Source of the DNA: an uncultured Candidatus Saccharibacteria bacterium
Lineage (GTDB): Bacteria; Patescibacteria; Saccharimonadia; Saccharimonadales; CAMLKC01
Length of the DNA stretch: 16,543 bases
Assembly: GCA_946480595.1 (NCBI GenBank)
Contig: CAMLKC010000019.1
Location: 1 to 16,543, forward strand
Reading direction: 5' to 3'
Part shown: positions 6,770-14,072 of the stretch, piece after piece
How positions within the stretch are numbered: the first letter of the stretch is position 1
Layout: each line of letters starts with the position of its first letter
The notes under the pieces: model-generated
The model's input: only the letters and a program-made list of their open reading frames with translations
The model's database searches: none
Told to the model about the DNA's origin: nothing
Position numbers and translations under genes: made by a program

Positions 6770-6777
6770 ACTTTTTG

Positions 6778-7044
6778 ATGATAACAGCAGATAACAAAGC
6801 CAAGGCACTCGCCTTGACACAGACGCACAAAGAAGACGTTGGGTCTCCACAAGCTCAGGTCTCTGTTTTGACGTCTCGTATCAAGGAAATCACCGAGCAC
6901 CTCAAGGCTAACAAGCACGACCACATGGCTCGCCGCGGACTTATCCAGATGGTAGGCCGTCGCAAAAGGTTGCTGAAATACCTCGAACGCAAAAACTTCG
7001 AAGCTTACGAAGCAACCGTCGCCAAGCTAAAACTCCGCAAATAA
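6778..7044 (+). CDS. rpsO: Ribosomal protein S15
   Basis: An 88-aa protein of the usual S15 length (about 89 aa) that binds the central domain of 16S rRNA. Conserved pieces: GSPQAQVSVLTSRIKEITEHL, then HDHMARRGLIQMVGRRKRLL, LKYL. ATG 6778 is used; the TTG three bases before it is not needed, as the family begins just before this point. The gene has no Shine-Dalgarno sequence and is read from its own promoter. The terminator hairpin begins in its last codons. Confidence 0.96.
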   Translation: MITADNKAKALALTQTHKEDVGSPQAQVSVLTSRIKEITEHLKANKHDHMARRGLIQMVGRRKRLLKYLERKNFEAYEATVAKLKLRK

Positions 7045-7058
7045 TCGCGGAGTTTTTT
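7029..7058 (+). terminator. Terminator of rpsO
   Basis: AAAACTCCGC (7029-7038) pairs with GCGGAGTTTT (7047-7056) around an 8-nt loop that contains the stop codon, followed by TT. The 5' arm encodes the last residues of S15. Confidence 0.85.
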
Positions 7059-7084
7059 GATTCTTTAAATAAACATGGTATAGT
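7057..7084 (+). promoter_or_regulatory. Promoter of the 17-codon leader ORF and downstream operon
   Basis: TTGATT (7057-7062), 16-nt spacer, TATAGT (7079-7084) with an extended -10 TGG. The -35 overlaps the T-tail of the rpsO terminator. Predicted transcription starts at or next to ATG 7091. Confidence 0.7.
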
Positions 7085-7090
7085 TTACGT

Positions 7091-7144
7091 ATGGTTTACC
7101 TAAACGCCCACCATCTGCATATTTCGCCGGAGCAAGTCGGGTAA
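7091..7144 (+). CDS. Leaderless 17-aa ORF, possible leader peptide
   Basis: Encodes MVYLNAHHLHISPEQVG and then TAA. Three of residues 7-10 are His (CAC, CAT, CTG, CAT). The ATG lies 6 nt after a good -10 box, the arrangement seen for other genes in this window, and no ribosome site is present. A terminator follows 21 nt after the stop. The bases of its last codons (CAAGTCGG, 7133-7140) can pair with the 5' arm of that terminator. This is what an attenuation leader would look like, but expression of the peptide is inferred only. Confidence 0.45.
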   Translation: MVYLNAHHLHISPEQVG

Positions 7145-7165
7145 TTTTCTTATTGTCATATTTTT

Positions 7166-7190
7166 ACGCCGAACTTGTTTCGGCGTTTTT
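7166..7190 (+). terminator. Intrinsic terminator upstream of the GNAT-like gene
   Basis: ACGCCGAA (7166-7173) pairs with TTCGGCGT (7179-7186) around a 5-nt loop, followed by TTTT and G, then TTT. It ends 31 nt before the start of the next gene, for which I see no separate -10 box, so it may control read-through into that gene. Confidence 0.8.
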
Positions 7191-7221
7191 GTTTGTTGAC
7201 TTTAATTTGAAATAAGGAAAT

Positions 7222-7917
7222 ATGATGAAAAACAGAGAAATACTTACTGGTGAGCGAGGAGCTCGCCGGTTGGATGATATAGCGATCCCGCTTGCGGATG
7301 TCTATAAAGCGGCGTTTGCCGGTGAACCGTGGTTTGAGGTGAGCAGGTGCGCGGTCGACGATTGTTCGGTAGGTTTTTGCCCGGACGCACCAGGGCTGCC
7401 GTGTGCTGGGTGCGGTAACGAGCTAACTGAGGCATATGAGGTAGATGAGCTTGTCGCCGCGTGGCGGCAAATGATAACAGGCGAAGATGCGATGATGGAG
7501 ATTGGTTACATGGGCGACAATCCGGTCCGGGTTACGCTAGCGCGCCCAACGACACCAGCCGAATTGTACGCCCGAAAATACGCAGACGTGCCGGCGATGG
7601 AACGCTGGACTGCCGAAAACCTCGACCGCGAGCTGGTTTGGATCGAAGACACCTTTGCTGACCGAAGCAAACAGCCGCGCGGTAACTTAAAAGAGCGCGG
7701 CCGCACGCTCGGCACGATCGCGCTTCGCTACGGCGGCCTAGCGGTCGTAACGCGCACATTGGCGCCGCAGGTCATTGCGGCCACGCTACGCGACGCAGGG
7801 GAGAGAACCGACCTGTTTGTTGGCACCGAAGGAGTTGGCAGTACCATGCCGGGCGCCCGGTCGGTAATGATCGTGCCTGACAGGCGAACGCTGCTGAACG
7901 TGAAGGAGATAGAATGA
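7222..7917 (+). CDS. GNAT-like protein with a cysteine cluster
   Basis: The 231-aa product resembles a group of GNAT-fold proteins. IPLADVYKAAFAGEPWFEV (22-40) matches the first helix of that group ('iy..aF..ePw.E'), followed by cysteines 43, 48, 53, 61 and 64 (ending CAGCG), which may bind zinc. GGLAVVTRTLAPQVIAATLRDAG near the C-terminus resembles the last GNAT strand and helix. The usual acetyl-CoA loop (R/Q-x-x-G-x-G/A) is not obvious, though GRTLGTIALRYGG is a candidate region. An AAGGA site precedes ATG 7222 by 3 nt; ATG 7225, the next codon, would be better spaced. The stop overlaps the next start (ATGA). It may be controlled by the leader at 7091-7190. The acetyltransferase function is tentative. 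Confidence 0.6.
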   Translation: MMKNREILTGERGARRLDDIAIPLADVYKAAFAGEPWFEVSRCAVDDCSVGFCPDAPGLPCAGCGNELTEAYEVDELVAAWRQMITGEDAMMEIGYMGDNPVRVTLARPTTPAELYARKYADVPAMERWTAENLDRELVWIEDTFADRSKQPRGNLKERGRTLGTIALRYGGLAVVTRTLAPQVIAATLRDAGERTDLFVGTEGVGSTMPGARSVMIVPDRRTLLNVKEIE

Positions 7918-8618
7918 ATATCTTAGTACTTGGCGGCACGCACGGCAATGAGCTGCTGGGGATACGGCTGGTAAAGCTGTTAAAAAGGCGTCCAATCAAA
8001 GGTGTGAAGGCGGTGATTGCCAACCCCAGGGCAGTCCAAGCCGTTACGCGTTTTACCGAGTCCGATCTCAACCGGAGTTTCGGTGAAGGCTACGTGGGTA
8101 CCTACGAGACGAAACGGGCCGTCGGGCTGAAAAAACTGGCGGCCGGCTACGACGCGGTGCTGGACTTTCACAATACCCAAACGCCGAACAACAACTGCGG
8201 ATTTGTAGGGATGGGCTGTGACCCGCGCCTGTACGACGTGGCAAAAGCCGTCGGGTTTTCGATGTGCGTCGAGGCTACCTACGACTGTGTGAATAAGTAT
8301 TGCCTCAACACGATTTCCATTGAAATAAGCGTGGACGATGCACTGGACGACCCGGAAATCTGGTACGAAAAAATAGCCGCCTTATCCGCGGAGAGGTTGC
8401 CAGTTCCGCAGCGCCCGCTTCAGCTGTACCGGTTTTCGCGCCGGGTGTCATGGGAAGAAAAGGAAGCGCTTAGCCTTGGGAATTGGCAGCCGTTTCAGCG
8501 AATAAACGCCGATGAAGCGCGCCGTCTGGGCGTCAAAAAAGAAACGGTGCCGATTTTCATCGGCTCACGGTTCACCAGCGAATACGCAACGCTGCTTTCG
8601 ATAGAGCGGAGCGTTTAA
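7914..8618 (+). CDS. AspA/AstE-type M14 zinc deacylase
   Basis: A 234-aa member of the aspartoacylase / succinylglutamate desuccinylase branch of M14 zinc carboxypeptidases, which remove acyl groups from N-acyl amino acids. Visible residues: GGTHGNE (7-13) with zinc ligands His10 and Glu13, ESDLNRSF (49-56) with substrate-binding Arg54, VLDFHNTQ (82-89) with the third ligand His86, and ISIEIS (134-139) where Glu137 is the likely catalytic Glu. Length is slightly short for the family (about 300 aa). It starts within the stop of the GNAT-like gene (4-nt ATGA overlap), so the two are translationally coupled. The substrate is unknown. Its TAA overlaps the stop of the convergent NUDIX gene in the sequence TTAA. 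Confidence 0.83.
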   Translation: MNILVLGGTHGNELLGIRLVKLLKRRPIKGVKAVIANPRAVQAVTRFTESDLNRSFGEGYVGTYETKRAVGLKKLAAGYDAVLDFHNTQTPNNNCGFVGMGCDPRLYDVAKAVGFSMCVEATYDCVNKYCLNTISIEISVDDALDDPEIWYEKIAALSAERLPVPQRPLQLYRFSRRVSWEEKEALSLGNWQPFQRINADEARRLGVKKETVPIFIGSRFTSEYATLLSIERSV

Positions 8619-9070
8619 AGACTCATTTGGTGGTAAATAAGTACCGGCTGCACGGTATTCACGTACTTGCTCAGATCGATTTCCTGCAGGAAGTCGGGCA
8701 GGACGACGTGTTCTTTCGGGTCGATAAACTCAACCAGCTCGACTTCCTCGACGCCGTGCGACGTGGCGGCAAGGTCGATAGTCTCGTAATCTTCGGGGTT
8801 TTCAATCAGGAAAAAGAACTCCATCTGTTCTTTTTTGCCGTCCTCAGTAAACTGCTGCATAAAGAGCAGGCGGCCGATCTTCGGTTCAATGCCGGTTTCC
8901 TCGATCATTTCGCGCTTTAGGCCGTCTTCTAACAGCTCACCCATGTCCAGTCCGCCACCGGGCGTACACCAAAAGTCGCGGTCGTTCCGGCGGTAGGCGG
9001 TCAGCTTTTGGCAGAGTAACTTTTCGTCTTTAAAAATGATTCCTCGTACGGCAATCCGTCGTTCTTGCAT
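8615..9070 (-). CDS. NUDIX hydrolase
   Basis: The 151-aa product contains a complete Nudix box, GGLDMGELLEDGLKREMIEE then TGI (39-61), matching G-x5-E-x7-R-E-x2-E-E-x-G. Such enzymes cleave nucleoside diphosphates linked to another group, for example oxidised dNTPs, ADP-sugars or capped RNA ends. The exact substrate cannot be read from this sequence. The start ATG 9070 (MQERRIAVRGIIF) follows an AAGGAG site at 6 nt spacing; longer in-frame starts run into the leader and lack support. It is transcribed from 9162-9167 with a leader of about 85 nt that is homologous to the leader of the divergent operon. Confidence 0.9.
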   Translation of the reverse strand: MQERRIAVRGIIFKDEKLLCQKLTAYRRNDRDFWCTPGGGLDMGELLEDGLKREMIEETGIEPKIGRLLFMQQFTEDGKKEQMEFFFLIENPEDYETIDLAATSHGVEEVELVEFIDPKEHVVLPDFLQEIDLSKYVNTVQPVLIYHQMSL

Positions 9071-9105
9071 GTGTTTCTCCTTGGTTAAAATATTGACCGT
9101 TAGAG

Positions 9106-9167
9106 GTTCGGCTCGTCCGAACGTAGACGCATAGCGGATCCCGCAGGATCGTATTGCCACGATTATA
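9106..9167 (-). promoter_or_regulatory. Promoter and two-hairpin leader of the NUDIX gene
   Basis: Minus strand: extended -10 TGCTATAAT (box 9167-9162), then TGGCAAT, hairpin 1 GATCC-TGCG-GGATC (9150-9137), a 14-nt linker containing CTAT, and hairpin 2 GTTCGG-ACGAG-CCGAAC (9122-9106). The ribosome site follows about 20 nt later. The same order and spacing occur on the other strand at 9200-9262. Confidence 0.62.
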
Positions 9168-9199
9168 GCACGAGGCTAGGCGGCGGAGCTACGGTTTGC

Positions 9200-9262
9200 T
9201 ATACTTGGCAATTACTATGATCCGCTAGGATCCTCTATTCGCGAATGTTCGGACGGCCGGAC
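9200..9262 (+). promoter_or_regulatory. Promoter and two-hairpin leader of the Gre-like operon
   Basis: Extended -10 TGCTATACT (box 9200-9205), then TGGCAAT, hairpin 1 GATCC-GCTA-GGATC (9219-9232), a 14-nt linker containing CTAT, and hairpin 2 GTTCGG-ACGG-CCGGAC (9247-9262). The stem of hairpin 2 is kept through a U-G pair relative to the copy at 9106-9122, while loops differ. An AAAGGAG ribosome site precedes ATG 9306. Confidence 0.62.
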
Positions 9263-9305
9263 CGCTGGCGATTCTCTTACGAAAAAATAAACGAAAGGAG
9301 CTTTC

Positions 9306-9764
9306 ATGCGCGAAGAGCTCGTCATACTTGATGAGGATAAAGCGTACGCGGCGCGGCGGATTGCCGAGTTGCAAAAAGAGATTCTTGGTCTGGGGCCTGA
9401 GTTTTACGAAGTATTTAATCAATCATCAGAAACCTGGCACGACAACGCGCCCTTTGACGCGCTGCGCGACCGGCAGTCGCTACTCGATGCCGAGCTGCAA
9501 AAACTCCGCCAAGTGCTGCGTGACAGTGTGCCGGGCGTGCCGGTAAAAAAGAAGGGCCAAGCGGGAGTCGGGAGCATCGTAGAACTCTCGAGCGGCCAGC
9601 GCTATTTTGTTGCCGGTGATTGGACGCCGCATGCCGGACAGTTGAAGGACGCCGCCATAGTTGTCAGCCGCAAAGCACCGATTGCCGCCGCGCTGCTTGG
9701 CAAAAAAGTCGGCGCCGTTGTATCCGCAGGCAAGCAACAGGCAATAATAACCGCTATACTATAA
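9306..9764 (+). CDS. GreA/GreB-like transcript cleavage factor, divergent
   Basis: The 152-aa length and layout match Gre factors, which enter the RNA polymerase secondary channel and promote cleavage of backtracked RNA. Residues 1-75 form a helical hairpin with heptad-like Leu. Residues 85-152 are the FKBP-like domain (GSIVELSSGQRYFVAGDW, SRKAPIAAALLGKKVGAVV, compare 'S..SPlG.ALlGk..Gd'). At the hairpin tip the usual 'DLSENAEY' is replaced by SETWHDNAPFD (41-51), with Asp46 and Asp51 as possible stand-ins for the metal-binding acids. It is the first gene of a three-gene operon with the FusB-type and GNAT genes. It could be a Gre paralogue with another job at the channel. Confidence 0.75.
   Translation: MREELVILDEDKAYAARRIAELQKEILGLGPEFYEVFNQSSETWHDNAPFDALRDRQSLLDAELQKLRQVLRDSVPGVPVKKKGQAGVGSIVELSSGQRYFVAGDWTPHAGQLKDAAIVVSRKAPIAAALLGKKVGAVVSAGKQQAIITAIL
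9755..9760 (+). promoter_or_regulatory. Internal -10 box before the FusB-type gene
   Basis: TATACT ends 6 nt before ATG 9767. This is the same geometry as the leaderless starts elsewhere in the window. No clear -35 is present, so it may be only a secondary promoter within the operon. Confidence 0.4.
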
Positions 9765-9766
9765 TC

Positions 9767-10249
9767 ATGAACGCTCTATCCAGAGAAGCATTTACCGAGC
9801 TAACTAGTACGATGCGGCCGCGGCTTCGCCGTGAGCTGCGCTTCGTGCCCGAAGAAATCAGCGACTGGGAAAGCCGTGATTTTTTGGCGGTGACCAACAA
9901 GCAGGGGAATGAAGGCGTGCTGATCGTTCCGTTCTTAGGTAATATAGTAGCTCCATTCGTAGTACAGGCTCGCCAGCCCAATGCATCGGGGCGGGTAGAA
10001 GCGGTTATCTGCGATATTTGCGCGACCTGGCAGCGCGGCACGCACTCGGCTGCCATTACTTTTACTGTCGACAAAACACGCTCAGTATCGTTTTTATGCT
10101 GCGCCGATCTGCTTTGCAGCTTTCACGTTCGTAGCCAAACAGCCGCCGCGACACTCTCAAGGGCGCAGCTGCGCGAGCAAATCACGGTTGACGCGAGAAT
10201 TCAGCGCCTGCGCGACCGGCTTGCGAGTATACTGAGTGTATATGAATGA
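9767..10249 (+). CDS. FBP/FusB-type protein with C-terminal treble-clef zinc finger
   Basis: The 160-aa product ends in a domain matching the EF-G-binding treble-clef zinc finger of FusB/FBP-family proteins. Visible pieces are ICDICATWQRGTHS (81-94) with Cys82, Cys85 and His93, then VSFLCCADLLCSFHVRSQ (107-124) with Cys111, Cys112 and Cys117. FusB proteins bind elongation factor G and free it from stalled ribosomes, giving fusidic acid resistance in staphylococci; relatives without known drug roles exist in Actinobacteria. ATG 9767 is 2 nt after the stop of the Gre-like gene; the frame is open further upstream but overlaps that gene without support. The last codons overlap the next gene by 8 nt. 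Confidence 0.72.
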   Translation: MNALSREAFTELTSTMRPRLRRELRFVPEEISDWESRDFLAVTNKQGNEGVLIVPFLGNIVAPFVVQARQPNASGRVEAVICDICATWQRGTHSAAITFTVDKTRSVSFLCCADLLCSFHVRSQTAAATLSRAQLREQITVDARIQRLRDRLASILSVYE

Positions 10250-10682
10250 CATTCACATCAGGGATATGCGCGAGGCGGACGTACCGGCAGTAGCGGCGAT
10301 TGGCCGCGGGGCGTCAGAGTTAAAAACGAATGAAGACGATGAATTCTGGAGCGAAGACCTCCTAAAAGACTGGGTTGCTGGTGACGATGTCATGCTTGTC
10401 GTTGAGGCAGATGGCCGGGTTGTTGGCTTTATGCTGACGCAGATCCACAAGGCAACCAAAGCAGGGTATCTGTCGGACGTCGCTATTCATCCGGACTTTC
10501 GCGGCCATGGTGTCGGCTCACAGCTCATCGAAGCAGCTCTTGCCCGGTTGAAAGAGCGTGGCGTTAACTACGTCTATGGCCTTACCAAGGTAGAAAACGA
10601 GAAAATACACGGCCTGCTGAAAAAATTTGGATTTACGCAGGGCAATGCTTTTTACTGGTTTGAGAAATATCTGGACGTTTAA
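10242..10682 (+). CDS. GNAT N-acetyltransferase (RimI-like)
   Basis: The 146-aa product shows a standard GNAT fold: IRDMREADVPAVAAIG (first strand and helix), MLVVEADGRVVGFML (strands 2-4), LSDVAIHPDFRGHGVGSQLI (motif A, acetyl-CoA loop R-G-H-G-V-G), and a C-terminal VYGLTKVENEKIHGLLKKFGF. It transfers acetyl from acetyl-CoA to an amine, possibly a protein N-terminus or a small molecule; the acceptor is unknown. ATG 10242 overlaps the previous stop by 8 nt, showing translational coupling; the GTG at 10236 is less likely. A TATACT box at 10228-10233 might add a second start. Its TAA shares TTAA with the stop of the convergent gene. Confidence 0.87.
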   Translation: MNDIHIRDMREADVPAVAAIGRGASELKTNEDDEFWSEDLLKDWVAGDDVMLVVEADGRVVGFMLTQIHKATKAGYLSDVAIHPDFRGHGVGSQLIEAALARLKERGVNYVYGLTKVENEKIHGLLKKFGFTQGNAFYWFEKYLDV

Positions 10683-11749
10683 GCAGCCAGATCGACTGAT
10701 TCTTGGGTCAGTGCTTCGCGCAGTAGCTGGGCTTTTTCGGCTGCCTTAGCAATTTCTCCGCCCCAAACGGTGGCGGGCGGATCAGCACGGGACTCGTAGC
10801 CGGCAACAGTCACGCGCAAATCACCCTCGAGGCATAGTCGTTCGGTCTCGAATTTTTGGCCTAGAAAGTATGGTTGGTGGCTGACAAACAGGGCTTTATC
10901 GCCTGGTTTAAGTTCGGCGATCTTGCTAAGAAACGCGATGGTTTCACCAGTACTCGCACGCGGCTGGCTATCTTTCTTGTAGGGAGCTGACAGGTTAACG
11001 ATAACCTCAGGTGCCCATTCCGGTCGTTGCTGGTCGTCGTCAAAACTAACTGTCTGCACCTGGTAGCGGCTGTCGTAGTTGTCATCTCGGTACCAAGAGG
11101 TCATGGGCGAGTGTGCATCAACGCGTGGTGCGTCATAGCCGTGTCGCTCGAACCAGTCTTTTGCTGCGAAGGCTAGCAGGTTGGTCTCGACCTGTGAATC
11201 ATTGACGTAGGGATATTTGCCGGCGTTTTTAAGGTCGGGGGCGAGCATAGGGCGTTCAGCGCCTAGGCCAATCAAATACTTAGCCGTGGTATCACCTTGC
11301 TCTAGTGTGTCGTACAGAAAGTCGGTGCGGTTTGCAACCGGCGCGACCGTGGCACCAAAAACAGCAGCAACGGTATAGTCACCTTCGGGTATAGGAGCAG
11401 CTTCGGTCATTGACAGCTCGGCTGCAACTCGTTTGATTGTCGTGCGAAATTCGGGTGATAGGTCATCATCTTTTAGTTGGTGACGCTCCATTTTAGGGTC
11501 ATTACGCCAGTTCATAGCTTTGTGGACCAGCCTGGCGACAACATCAGGATAGACTTCTAGGTTATCTTGCGCGGCTATCAGCTCGTTCATTTCCTCTTCA
11601 CTGATACGTCCTTCGGCTTCTGACGCAACCAGTAGTTCCTGTAATGCGGGGTGAAAGAGGAAGGCTTCGGTTTCATCTTTCAGACGTTCGCGGTAGTCGG
11701 CTTTGGATAGTGAGTGTTCTGGGGTGATTTTTGTGATTTCGTGGTTCAT
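10679..11749 (-). CDS. 356-aa protein of unknown function, weak DUF218-like signs
   Basis: I do not recognise this protein with certainty. Residues 1-120 are acidic and helical. Residues 125-310 look like an alpha/beta domain: YTVAAVFGATV (125-135), an Arg-containing helix, AKYLIGLGAERP (156-167), TGETIAFLSKIAEL (267-280) and DKALFVSHQPYFLGQKFETE (284-303). The order of a 'vFGA' strand, a 'lGa.R' turn, a T-x-E-T helix and an 'LFVSHQPY....R' segment recalls DUF218 (YdcF/SanA/ElyC) proteins, but the match is weak. No signal peptide or membrane helix is seen. ATG 11749 is 8 nt after a TATAGT box with a consensus -35, so the message is predicted to be leaderless. Confidence 0.8.
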   Translation of the reverse strand: MNHEITKITPEHSLSKADYRERLKDETEAFLFHPALQELLVASEAEGRISEEEMNELIAAQDNLEVYPDVVARLVHKAMNWRNDPKMERHQLKDDDLSPEFRTTIKRVAAELSMTEAAPIPEGDYTVAAVFGATVAPVANRTDFLYDTLEQGDTTAKYLIGLGAERPMLAPDLKNAGKYPYVNDSQVETNLLAFAAKDWFERHGYDAPRVDAHSPMTSWYRDDNYDSRYQVQTVSFDDDQQRPEWAPEVIVNLSAPYKKDSQPRASTGETIAFLSKIAELKPGDKALFVSHQPYFLGQKFETERLCLEGDLRVTVAGYESRADPPATVWGGEIAKAAEKAQLLREALTQESVDLAA

Positions 11750-11757
11750 TTGTCTAT

Positions 11758-11786
11758 ACTATAGCATAAACGCAATGAATTTTCAA
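11758..11786 (-). promoter_or_regulatory. Promoter of the 356-aa gene
   Basis: Minus strand: -35 TTGAAA (11786-11781), 17-nt spacer, -10 TATAGT (11763-11758) with an extended TGC. The start codon is 8 nt downstream, so this is a clear case of a leaderless transcript. Confidence 0.82.
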
Positions 11787-11821
11787 GAGGTACATAACTA
11801 GGGCAGTAAGGCTGAATAGGG

Positions 11822-11951
11822 TATAATAACAACAACGTTCGCCGCCAGCGACTAAGTGGTGGATGCGCTATTTCTGTTTCGCAGAAGTACTCGCACACCC
11901 GTTACTTACTCGCCTTATACATTAACAGGCGAACAAAAAAGGAGGACAGCA
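11822..11951 (+). promoter_or_regulatory. -10 box and structured leader of pnp
   Basis: TATAAT at 11822-11827 (no clear -35) opens a leader of about 115-120 nt. GTTCGCC (11837-11843) can pair with GGCGAAC (11928-11934), closing a multi-branch structure. Inside it TATTTCTG (11869-11876) pairs with CAGAAGTA (11882-11889). An alternative stem CCGCCA/TGGTGG (11842-11847 with 11857-11862) overlaps the closing stem by two bases. AAAAAAGGAGG follows directly, so the closing stem could control access to the ribosome site. Confidence 0.55.
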
Positions 11952-14072
11952 ATGTCTACTATCAACCCTCATGGTAAAGAGATCATCTCTGTTACCACTG
12001 ATCTTTGCGGCCAGCCGCTGACACTCGAGGTTAACCGCGTTGGCTTTCGTACGACTGCCAGCGTACTGGTAAAATACGGCGACACCGTCGTGCTCGGTAC
12101 GGCCATGGTCGGCAAAAAACCCATCAGCGGCATGGATTACTTTCCGCTTTCTGTGGACTACGAAGAAAAATTTTATGCAGCCGGCAAGATCAGTGGCAGC
12201 CGCTTTATTAAGCGCGAAGGTCGTCCAAGCGACGAAGCCATCCTTATTGGCCGTTTGATCGACCGTCCGATCCGTCCGCTGTTTCCAAAAGGTTACCGCC
12301 AGGAAGTCCAGGTGGTCGCAAGCGTGCTTTCCATGGACCCGGCATTCCGTCCTGACTCTATTGCCATGATCGCGGCGTCAACCGCCCTTATGCTGACCGG
12401 CGCACCGTTTGACGGTCCTGTTGCCGGGCTTCGCGTTGGCCGAGTTGGCGGCGAGTTCAAGGCTTTCCTTACAGCTGAAGAGCGCGAAGAAAGTGATCTC
12501 GACCTCGTTGTTGCTGGTATTGAACGCGGCGTCACCATGGTTGAGGCTGGCGCCAACGAAGTCAGCGAAGCCGTCGTCGCCGAGGGTATCGCCTGGGCAT
12601 ACGAGCAGCTCCAGCCAGCTATCAAACTCCAAAAAGAGCTGATAGAAAAAGTTGGCGTTGAGGCACTCGAATTCGAACTTATCCTTCCGAACGAAGAGTT
12701 CCAGCAAATCGTCGATGAGTGGATGAAAGACAAGCTTGGCGAAGACCTCCGCCGCCCGTACCCTGAACGGAACGAAATGGTTTCAATTTTACGTGACCAA
12801 TTCCACGACGCAATGGTCGAAAAGTTTGGTGAAGAGGACTACAGCATCCTCCGCGGCGAATACGACGAGGCTTTCACGATGGCACTGCATAAAGACGTTC
12901 GCCGGGGAATTGTTGAGGACAACCTTCGTCCTGACGGCCGTAAGCTCGACGAAATCCGTCCGCTTTCAAGCGAAGTCGGCATCTTGCCGCGTACGCACGG
13001 TTCGAGCATCTTTACCCGCGGCGTGACCCAGGGTATGAATATTGTCACCCTGGCACCGCTTAGCTACGCCCAAATGGTAGACACGATGGAGCAAAACGAC
13101 TACGAACGCCGCTACATGCACCATTACAACGCGCCGGGCTACACTGTTGGTGAAGTTCGCCGTCTCGGCTCACCAGGACGCCGCGAAATCGGTCACGGCT
13201 ATCTTGCCGAACGCGCCCTTATTCCTGTGCTTCCAGCCGAAGAGGATTTCCCGTACGCTATCCGCAGCGTCACGGAAATCATGAGCCAGAATGGCTCGAC
13301 CTCTATGGCCGCTACTTGTAGCAGCTGCCTGGCGCTAATGGACGCTGGCGTGCCAATCAAGCGTCCGGTTAGTGGTATTGCCATGGGTCTGATGATGGAC
13401 GGCGACACGCCGTACGTTCTGAGCGACATCGCCGACGCCGAAGACTTTGCCGGCGACATGGACTTCAAGGTAACGGGTACCGAACAGGGAATCACGGCTA
13501 TCCAGATGGACATGAAGGTCCACGGCCTTCCTGTAGAAATTTTGCGCCAGGCACTTGAAACTGCCAAGCCGGGCCGTGCGCATATTCTCGAACACATGAT
13601 TTCAACGCTGGCTGCGCCTCGCGAGGCTATCAGCCCGTACGCGCCACGCATCGAAAAGATCAAGATCAACCCTGAAAAGATCGGTGCGGTCATTGGTAAG
13701 GGCGGAGAAGTCATCAACAAGATTACCGCCGAAACCGGCGCACAGATCGACATCAAGGACGACGGTCTTATTACCGTGGCTGCCAGCGACACTGCCAAGA
13801 TCGAAAAGGCAATCAACTGGATCAAGAGCCTGACCGAAGAGCCGGAAGTCGGCCGCATTTACGAAGGCAAGGTCGTCAGCATTAAGGACTTTGGTGCATT
13901 CGTGAACATCCTTCCGGGCATCGATGGCATGGTCCACATTTCGCAGCTTTCTAACGAGCGCGTCGAAAAAGTGACCGACGTACTACACGAAGGCCAAATC
14001 GTAAAAGCAAAACTGACTGGCATCGACGAGCGTGGCCGTCTCAGCCTTAGTCTGAAAGACGCGAACGAATAG
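11952..14072 (+). CDS. pnp: Polynucleotide phosphorylase
   Basis: 3'-to-5' phosphorolytic exoribonuclease, core of RNA decay. The 706-aa product has the expected order: first RNase PH domain (YGDTVVLGTAMVGKKPISGMDYFPL, then FIKREGRPSDEAILIGRLIDRP), helical linker, second RNase PH domain (RTHGSSIFTRGVTQ, SMAATCSSCLALMDAGVPI, and DMDFKVTGTEQGITAIQMD with the catalytic Asp pair), KH domain (KIGAVIGKGGEVINKIT with GxxG) and S1 domain (EGKVVSIKDFGAFVNILPGIDGMVHISQL). Length is close to the E. coli enzyme (711 aa). ATG 11952 follows GGAGG at good spacing; the frame is open further upstream but that part falls in the leader. The next gene begins 1 nt after the stop. Confidence 0.97.
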   Translation: MSTINPHGKEIISVTTDLCGQPLTLEVNRVGFRTTASVLVKYGDTVVLGTAMVGKKPISGMDYFPLSVDYEEKFYAAGKISGSRFIKREGRPSDEAILIGRLIDRPIRPLFPKGYRQEVQVVASVLSMDPAFRPDSIAMIAASTALMLTGAPFDGPVAGLRVGRVGGEFKAFLTAEEREESDLDLVVAGIERGVTMVEAGANEVSEAVVAEGIAWAYEQLQPAIKLQKELIEKVGVEALEFELILPNEEFQQIVDEWMKDKLGEDLRRPYPERNEMVSILRDQFHDAMVEKFGEEDYSILRGEYDEAFTMALHKDVRRGIVEDNLRPDGRKLDEIRPLSSEVGILPRTHGSSIFTRGVTQGMNIVTLAPLSYAQMVDTMEQNDYERRYMHHYNAPGYTVGEVRRLGSPGRREIGHGYLAERALIPVLPAEEDFPYAIRSVTEIMSQNGSTSMAATCSSCLALMDAGVPIKRPVSGIAMGLMMDGDTPYVLSDIADAEDFAGDMDFKVTGTEQGITAIQMDMKVHGLPVEILRQALETAKPGRAHILEHMISTLAAPREAISPYAPRIEKIKINPEKIGAVIGKGGEVINKITAETGAQIDIKDDGLITVAASDTAKIEKAINWIKSLTEEPEVGRIYEGKVVSIKDFGAFVNILPGIDGMVHISQLSNERVEKVTDVLHEGQIVKAKLTGIDERGRLSLSLKDANE

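Follow-up and report, generated by a model that had tools for sequence, protein, structure and literature searches.

MDR-NUDIX RNA (Rfam RF02918) is a structured RNA reported from TM7/Saccharibacteria, and it is said to have been first described by Weinberg et al. in 2017. Its name refers to multidrug exporter and NUDIX genes, and alignment of the two copies studied here to the family model gives a helix P1 of five pairs, a helix P2 of four pairs, an internal loop of 4 + 5 bases, and a helix P3 of six pairs with a loop reading ACG(A)G. The term MDR-NUDIX was not found in any of 5.39 million open-licence papers, and no ligand or mechanism for this RNA was found in open-licence papers.

Two riboswitch classes invite comparison. 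Guanidine-II (mini-ykkC) RNAs, according to PMC5486947, have two stem-loops with G-C-closed ACGR loops through which they dimerise, and they precede efflux-pump and other genes, where they are thought to act on translation. The ykkC subtype 2c riboswitch, according to PMC7266159, senses (d)ADP/(d)CDP and controls genes for NUDIX and HAD-like hydrolases; NUDIX genes also lie behind MDR-NUDIX RNA.

Here we analyse a window of 16,543 nucleotides (the whole stretch of DNA given above) from an uncultured Candidatus Saccharibacteria bacterium, in which two divergent leaders carry similar structured elements. The pair is real, selected, and regulatory, and belongs to the catalogued orphan cis-regulatory family RF02918. 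We consider it likely that both arms are 5'-terminal, cis-regulatory MDR-NUDIX RNA leaders that link exporter, NUDIX, and Gre-like genes to one signal.

Two MDR-NUDIX RNAs in one divergent promoter region

An Rfam scan identifies the right arm (9214..9271, + strand) as RF02918 with 72.3 bits (E 2.5e-12) and the left arm (9097..9155, - strand) with 61.5 bits (E 9e-10), against a cut-off of 54.9, and both align to the model over its full length, 1-59. The initial annotation had placed the same structured leader on both arms of a divergent promoter, as these matches bear out, and had taken the pattern to be without a known RNA family; both arms belong to one already catalogued, and the motif is not new. 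They resemble RF02918 in sequence, in all three helices, in the loops, and in leader position. In keeping with the family name, the gene behind the left arm is a NUDIX gene, whereas the right arm leads into a Gre-like/FusB-type/GNAT group, a class absent from that name, and the two copies here make up a single divergent promoter region.

The right element reads, in order, 5' ACUAU, P1 (GAUCC/GGAUC), a CUCUA linker, P2 (UCGC/GCGA), and P3 (GUUCGG/CCGGAC) with an ACGG loop; the left element has the same layout, with an ACGAG loop on P3 and one G-G mismatch in P2. Hairpin 1 is GATCC-GCTA-GGATC (9219-9232, +) on the right and GATCC-TGCG-GGATC (9137-9150, -) on the left, and hairpin 2 is GTTCGG-ACGG-CCGGAC (9247-9262, +) and GTTCGG-ACGAG-CCGAAC (9106-9122, -), such that the change of one hairpin 2 stem pair from U-A to U-G between the arms, pointed out earlier, is real. 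The proposal of a layout with only two hairpins needs revision, in that a third helix, P2, encloses hairpin 2. The 14-nt linker between the hairpins (CTCTATTCGCGAAT on the + arm, CGCTATGCGTCTAC on the - arm) has the length originally given in both arms, but it is not wholly single-stranded: its later part pairs 3' of hairpin 2 as P2, and the element therefore spans 9214-9271 (+) and 9155-9097 (-). The heptamer TGGCAAT (9206-9212, +; 9153-9159, -), which had been counted as part of the layout, is found in only two of 72 copies, both of them in the window, with one further copy (G074:C1b) reading TGGCACT at that position. Within the window, the combined pattern of -10 box, TGGCAAT, two hairpins, and linker is present at these two sites only.

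The P3 loop is similar to those of guanidine-II and likewise closed by G-C, being exactly ACGR in 15 of the 72 copies and ACGAG in 34. In contrast to guanidine-II, the ACG-type loop is confined to P3, the P1 loop being variable, and P2 and the internal loop have no counterpart there. Because the two-stem-loop hallmark is absent, the window elements are not members of guanidine-II; at positions 9000-9400 neither an Rfam match to guanidine-II nor a covariance-model match to ykkC was seen at E up to 1.

Genes at the window locus

The left leader runs into a gene for a NUDIX hydrolase of 151 aa (8615..9070, -; Pfam NUDIX, E 6.8e-15), with the Shine-Dalgarno sequence AAGGAG at 9077..9082 (-). The right leader, with AAGGAG at 9295..9300 (+), runs into a group of genes that begins with a Gre/Gfh1-like protein of 152 aa (9306..9764, +) and continues with an FBP_C (FusB-type) treble-clef protein (9767..10249, +; Pfam, E 3.2e-13) and a GNAT acetyltransferase (10236..10682, +; Pfam, E 9.3e-19). 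The earlier gene calls are confirmed by Pfam for NUDIX, FBP_C, and GNAT, and supported by weak matches for the Gre-like protein. The proteins encoded at 7222-7917 and 10679-11749 match nothing in Pfam at E up to 0.001. We take the genes that flank the NUDIX and Gre-like/FBP_C block (window 6775-14072) to be rpsO and pnp.

All seven Gre-like relatives match the GreA_GreB C-terminal domain at E up to 0.05, with the match of the window's own protein below the curated cut-off, and one of the seven matches the Gre N-terminal domain (E 0.035). A profile of the group finds Gfh1 as the nearest solved chain (E 0.0016), with GreA at E 0.0097, both being weak matches. In the stretch QSSETWHDNAPFDALRDKQS of the 9306-9764 gene, 16 of 20 positions are invariant among seven sequences, and this Gre/Gfh1-like paralogue may represent a distinct transcription-factor family of its class.

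Distribution and target genes

The prediction that related leaders would hold further copies was followed up by covariance-model search of 392 genomes, an even draw from the larger class to which Saccharibacteria genome UBA6175 belongs. At E up to 1e-3, 54 of the 392 genomes have a match, 43 of them over the cut-off, and the matches lie at 69 places (55 above the Rfam cut-off and 14 below it), although weak copies may have been missed as a consequence of the stricter search filters used. No MDR-NUDIX RNA match was seen in 14 control genomes. Together with the two window copies and one from G001, the scan gives 72 copies. The gene downstream of each was picked by a rule on length, start codon, and ribosome-binding site within 320 nt, and was assigned to a family by phmmer comparison with six representatives (E up to 1e-5).

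All 72 copies precede a gene of one of three families: ABC exporters (41 copies), NUDIX (24 copies), and Gre-like proteins (seven copies, namely the window right arm and six others). Many of the exporter genes run off the end of the locus; two of the 41 were compared with NCBIfam and gave their highest scores with MsbA-type models, though short of the cut-offs. Genomes G262, G178, and G253 each have one copy before an exporter gene, one before a NUDIX gene, and one before a Gre-like gene. Because the element stands before all three families, with one copy of each kind in three genomes, it most likely places these genes under a common signal, and the co-regulation suggested in the initial annotation fits this gene association. 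The combination of an exporter, a nucleotide hydrolase, and a Gre-like factor in one genome narrows what the signal might be, and suggests stress or a drug-like compound.

The same gene association bears on whether the two arms, which are similar inverted copies and 73% complementary across 40 nt, might be what is left of a small mobile element with inverted repeats. We regard this as extremely improbable, as every copy lies upstream of, and co-oriented with, a gene from the three families, no genome has more than three copies, and the locus is conserved in G262, with which the window is syntenic, and in G178.

Among the 392 genomes, 13 have a Gre-like member at 117 bits or more, and the next matches, which are probably ordinary GreA, score at most 60.1 bits. 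Five of the 13 genes have the full element and four (in G253, G126, G326, and G082) have a short form, in which P2 and P3 are present and P1 is absent (L103:1442-1477, +; L105:1980-2017, -; L107:1427-1465, +; L096:3062-3112, -). The contig with the G348 gene stops too early to show an element, and none was found for those of G143, G208, and G360; the right arm of the window adds another full copy beyond these 13. The short forms are far under the Rfam cut-off or unlisted. A related reduction is seen in one exporter copy (G130:C25, 31.7 bits), in which P1 is strongly reduced. A P2/P3 core model was built from alignment A3 (68 of the 72 copies, omitting G179:C1, G390:C2, G327:C84, and G068:C2, plus three short forms), and in the 392 genomes it found nothing new below E 1e-4 beyond the prior copies and the three source short forms. 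The four Gre-like genes with an element lacking P1 point to P2/P3 as the core, which the short form marks out for probing.

The FBP_C gene is found in two of the 13 Gre-like loci (G262 and G178) and the window GNAT gene in none of them, some of these loci being short; the constant target is therefore the Gre-like gene, and not the FusB-type or GNAT gene.

Promoters and the divergent arrangement

Each arm has a predicted promoter immediately upstream of the element. There are 8 nt between the end of the extended -10 box TGCTATACT (9197..9205, +) and the right element, and 6 nt between the end of TGCTATAAT (9162..9170, -) and the left one. A sigma-70 scan lists neither proposed promoter, on account of their weak -35 boxes, and its sole hit is at 9008-9037. 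In the larger set, the best -10 hexamer among 45 scanned positions ends 6-8 nt before the first base of the element in 58 of 72 copies, and from this spacing the transcript is predicted to begin at the element itself or no more than one or two bases away from it, such that the RNA probably begins at the 5' end of the transcript. By eye, a 6-nt spacing from the -10 box is also seen for the short forms in L103 and L107, and is not clearly kept in that of G253 (G253:C20).

The two elements are back-to-back with a gap of 58 bases in the window and 56 in G262, and the window extended -10 boxes are 26 bases apart (9162-9205). In a gap of 58 bases, -35 regions at their customary spacing would interleave, and polymerase probably cannot occupy both divergent promoters at once. 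The two units of G178 likewise diverge, although some 1.8 kb separates them and a homologue of the window gene at 10679-11749 lies in between. In the window, G262, and G178, the element pair is located between genes that are presumably rpsO and pnp, and in G253 the Gre-like gene stands alone between the presumed rpsO and pnp, its NUDIX gene being on another contig. The divergent pair has both arms in about 175 bases, which is handy for a two-colour reporter.

Evidence for a selected RNA fold

The proposal that an RNA fold is under selection in both leaders is supported by covariation. Across the 72 aligned copies (71 distinct), the helices are paired in 94.4% of 1054 cells, and 12 of the 15 pairs change on both sides. 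Double-change cells number 145, compared with 43 in shuffles, and the covariation score is 0.409, compared with 0.163 for shuffles, which do not allow for relatedness, and 0.034-0.095 for slid structures, which do. A mutual-information scan without a given structure, done on 66 rows (65 distinct) after dropping six badly aligned rows, returns only proposed pairs at ranks 1-6. With helix covariation this strong, chance, a mobile repeat, and a plain DNA operator are all disfavoured.

The DNA operator, as the site for a protein controlling both promoters, deserves consideration nonetheless, because the repeats adjoin both -10 boxes, P1 is palindromic, and the element starts directly after the promoter in most copies. 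Against it, the internal loop between P2 and P3 is asymmetric, double changes are present at all four P2 pairs (at one pair in a single cell only), and the palindromic P1 is the helix missing from the four copies with the short form. A strand-specific excess of G-U over A-C would also argue for RNA; in the 66 rows the ratio is 33:18 over all helices, 22:5 in P2, and 4:0 in P1, but 7:13 in P3, and with the sign reversed there the test is only suggestive. On balance, we consider an operator improbable.

Folding of single sequences supports the structure only weakly, with energy z-scores of -1.16 and -0.76 for the two window arms. The best fold of the left element is without P2, part of which is present in its centroid, and the best fold of the right leader with the linker included loses both P2 and P3.

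Conservation extends to unpaired bases, with the 5' ACUAU kept in 56 of 72 copies, the linker CUCUA in 51 of 72, and the P3 loop conserved as well. Two further pairings picked out by eye in alignment A2, one between the ACGAG loop and the P2 5' strand and one joining ACUAU or CUAU to an AUAG on the 3' side, are absent from the top 22 mutual-information pairs and were rejected. Separately, A2 columns 2 and 44 (5' leader and linker) and columns 79 and 80 (internal loop) show non-canonical covariation, a hint of tertiary contacts.

Leader regions and possible modes of control

Downstream of the element, the first 15 nucleotides of the linker contain 4% G, and in 63 of the 72 copies 26-51 nt separate the element from the start codon; the other nine have picked start codons more than 60 nt away and were omitted from the linker, Shine-Dalgarno, and T-run analyses. 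An expression platform was not apparent in the leaders. Sequestration of the Shine-Dalgarno sequence was rejected as a general mechanism, as its pairing with the element averages 0.142 in the 63 leaders, compared with 0.167 (sd 0.023) for swapped elements and 0.256 (sd 0.038) for shuffled ones. Its predicted pairing with the linker alone (0.040 native, 0.054 swapped, 0.023 [sd 0.011] shuffled) is in small excess over shuffles, on which we do not build. The ribosome-binding site is predicted to be unpaired at 0.40 when the element is present and at 0.49 when it is removed; in a few leaders, including the window left arm (0.64), the site is predicted to pair with the element.

Near the window leaders there is one terminator-like site, which is at chance level (shuffle mean 0.6), and no consistent intrinsic terminator was seen across leaders, although 21 of the 63 have at least five T in eight bases shortly 3' of the element, a count taken without a control. 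An AUG at base 4 of the element in 65 of 72 copies raises the question as to whether a leader peptide is translated from it for ribosome-mediated attenuation. The frames range from 2 to 100 residues with no common sequence, no conserved upstream peptide was found in the leaders, and the AUG is absent from seven copies, including the window left arm; we find attenuation of this kind scarcely credible.

A further explanation is that the element binds no ligand and acts as a 5'-terminal stability element against mRNA decay, possibly by controlling how the NUDIX enzyme itself removes the 5' pyrophosphate. Consistent with this are the predicted start at about base 1 of the element in most copies, the 6-nt spacing kept by the L103 and L107 short forms (and not clearly by G253:C20), a ribosome-binding site without general pairing, and the weak similarity of the window NUDIX protein to RNA pyrophosphohydrolases and also to MutT. 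Against it, no NCBIfam model reaches its cut-off with that protein, and the conserved unpaired bases exceed what a plain stabilising hairpin would need. We consider a purely stabilising role unlikely.

We return to regulated leaders that share one signal. Transcription would start at the first base of the RNA or a base or two away from it, and the RNA would fold into P1 and an arm made of P2 and P3, which holds an internal loop conserved in part and a loop of ACG type. An A/U-rich, G-poor linker would connect this fold to the ribosome-binding site. Together with the conserved unpaired bases, the linker and the position at the 5' end would suit a compact domain that senses a signal and affects either translation or decay dependent on the 5' end. 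Tentatively, and with slightly more doubt than confidence, we suggest that P2/P3 could be the core at which a small molecule or a protein is sensed, altering translation or 5'-end-dependent mRNA lifetime and not transcription termination. A more specific version, drawn by analogy and in our view a long shot, is that P2/P3 with its single G-C-closed ACG-type loop might be a one-hairpin 5'-terminal sensor analogous to guanidine-II in mechanism and not in descent, and might act at the mRNA 5' end to join drug efflux, nucleotide clean-up, and a Gre/Gfh1-like factor in one stress regulon; the NUDIX enzyme might also exert feedback through the 5' phosphates of the regulon to which it belongs.

The modest additions made here to what is catalogued are the Gre-like genes as a third target family, the short form without P1, a predicted position at the transcript 5' end, and another divergent pair, in G262.

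Occurrence beyond the class draw

In a phylum-wide draw, seven of 379 genomes match, six of them over the cut-off, and all seven had already been met in the class draw. A search of bacterial and archaeal genomes with an exact, longer DNA pattern returned nine stretches, three of which are MDR-NUDIX RNAs (two labelled Candidatus Saccharibacteria and one labelled uncultured bacterium) and six of which are not. As for viral copies, 12 of 18 exact-pattern stretches were checked with Rfam (L026-L031 were left out) and none matched. Alongside chance matches of the pattern in Rhodobacteraceae, we observed Rhodo-rpoB RNAs at L003:3204-3295 (+) and L006:151-242 (-).
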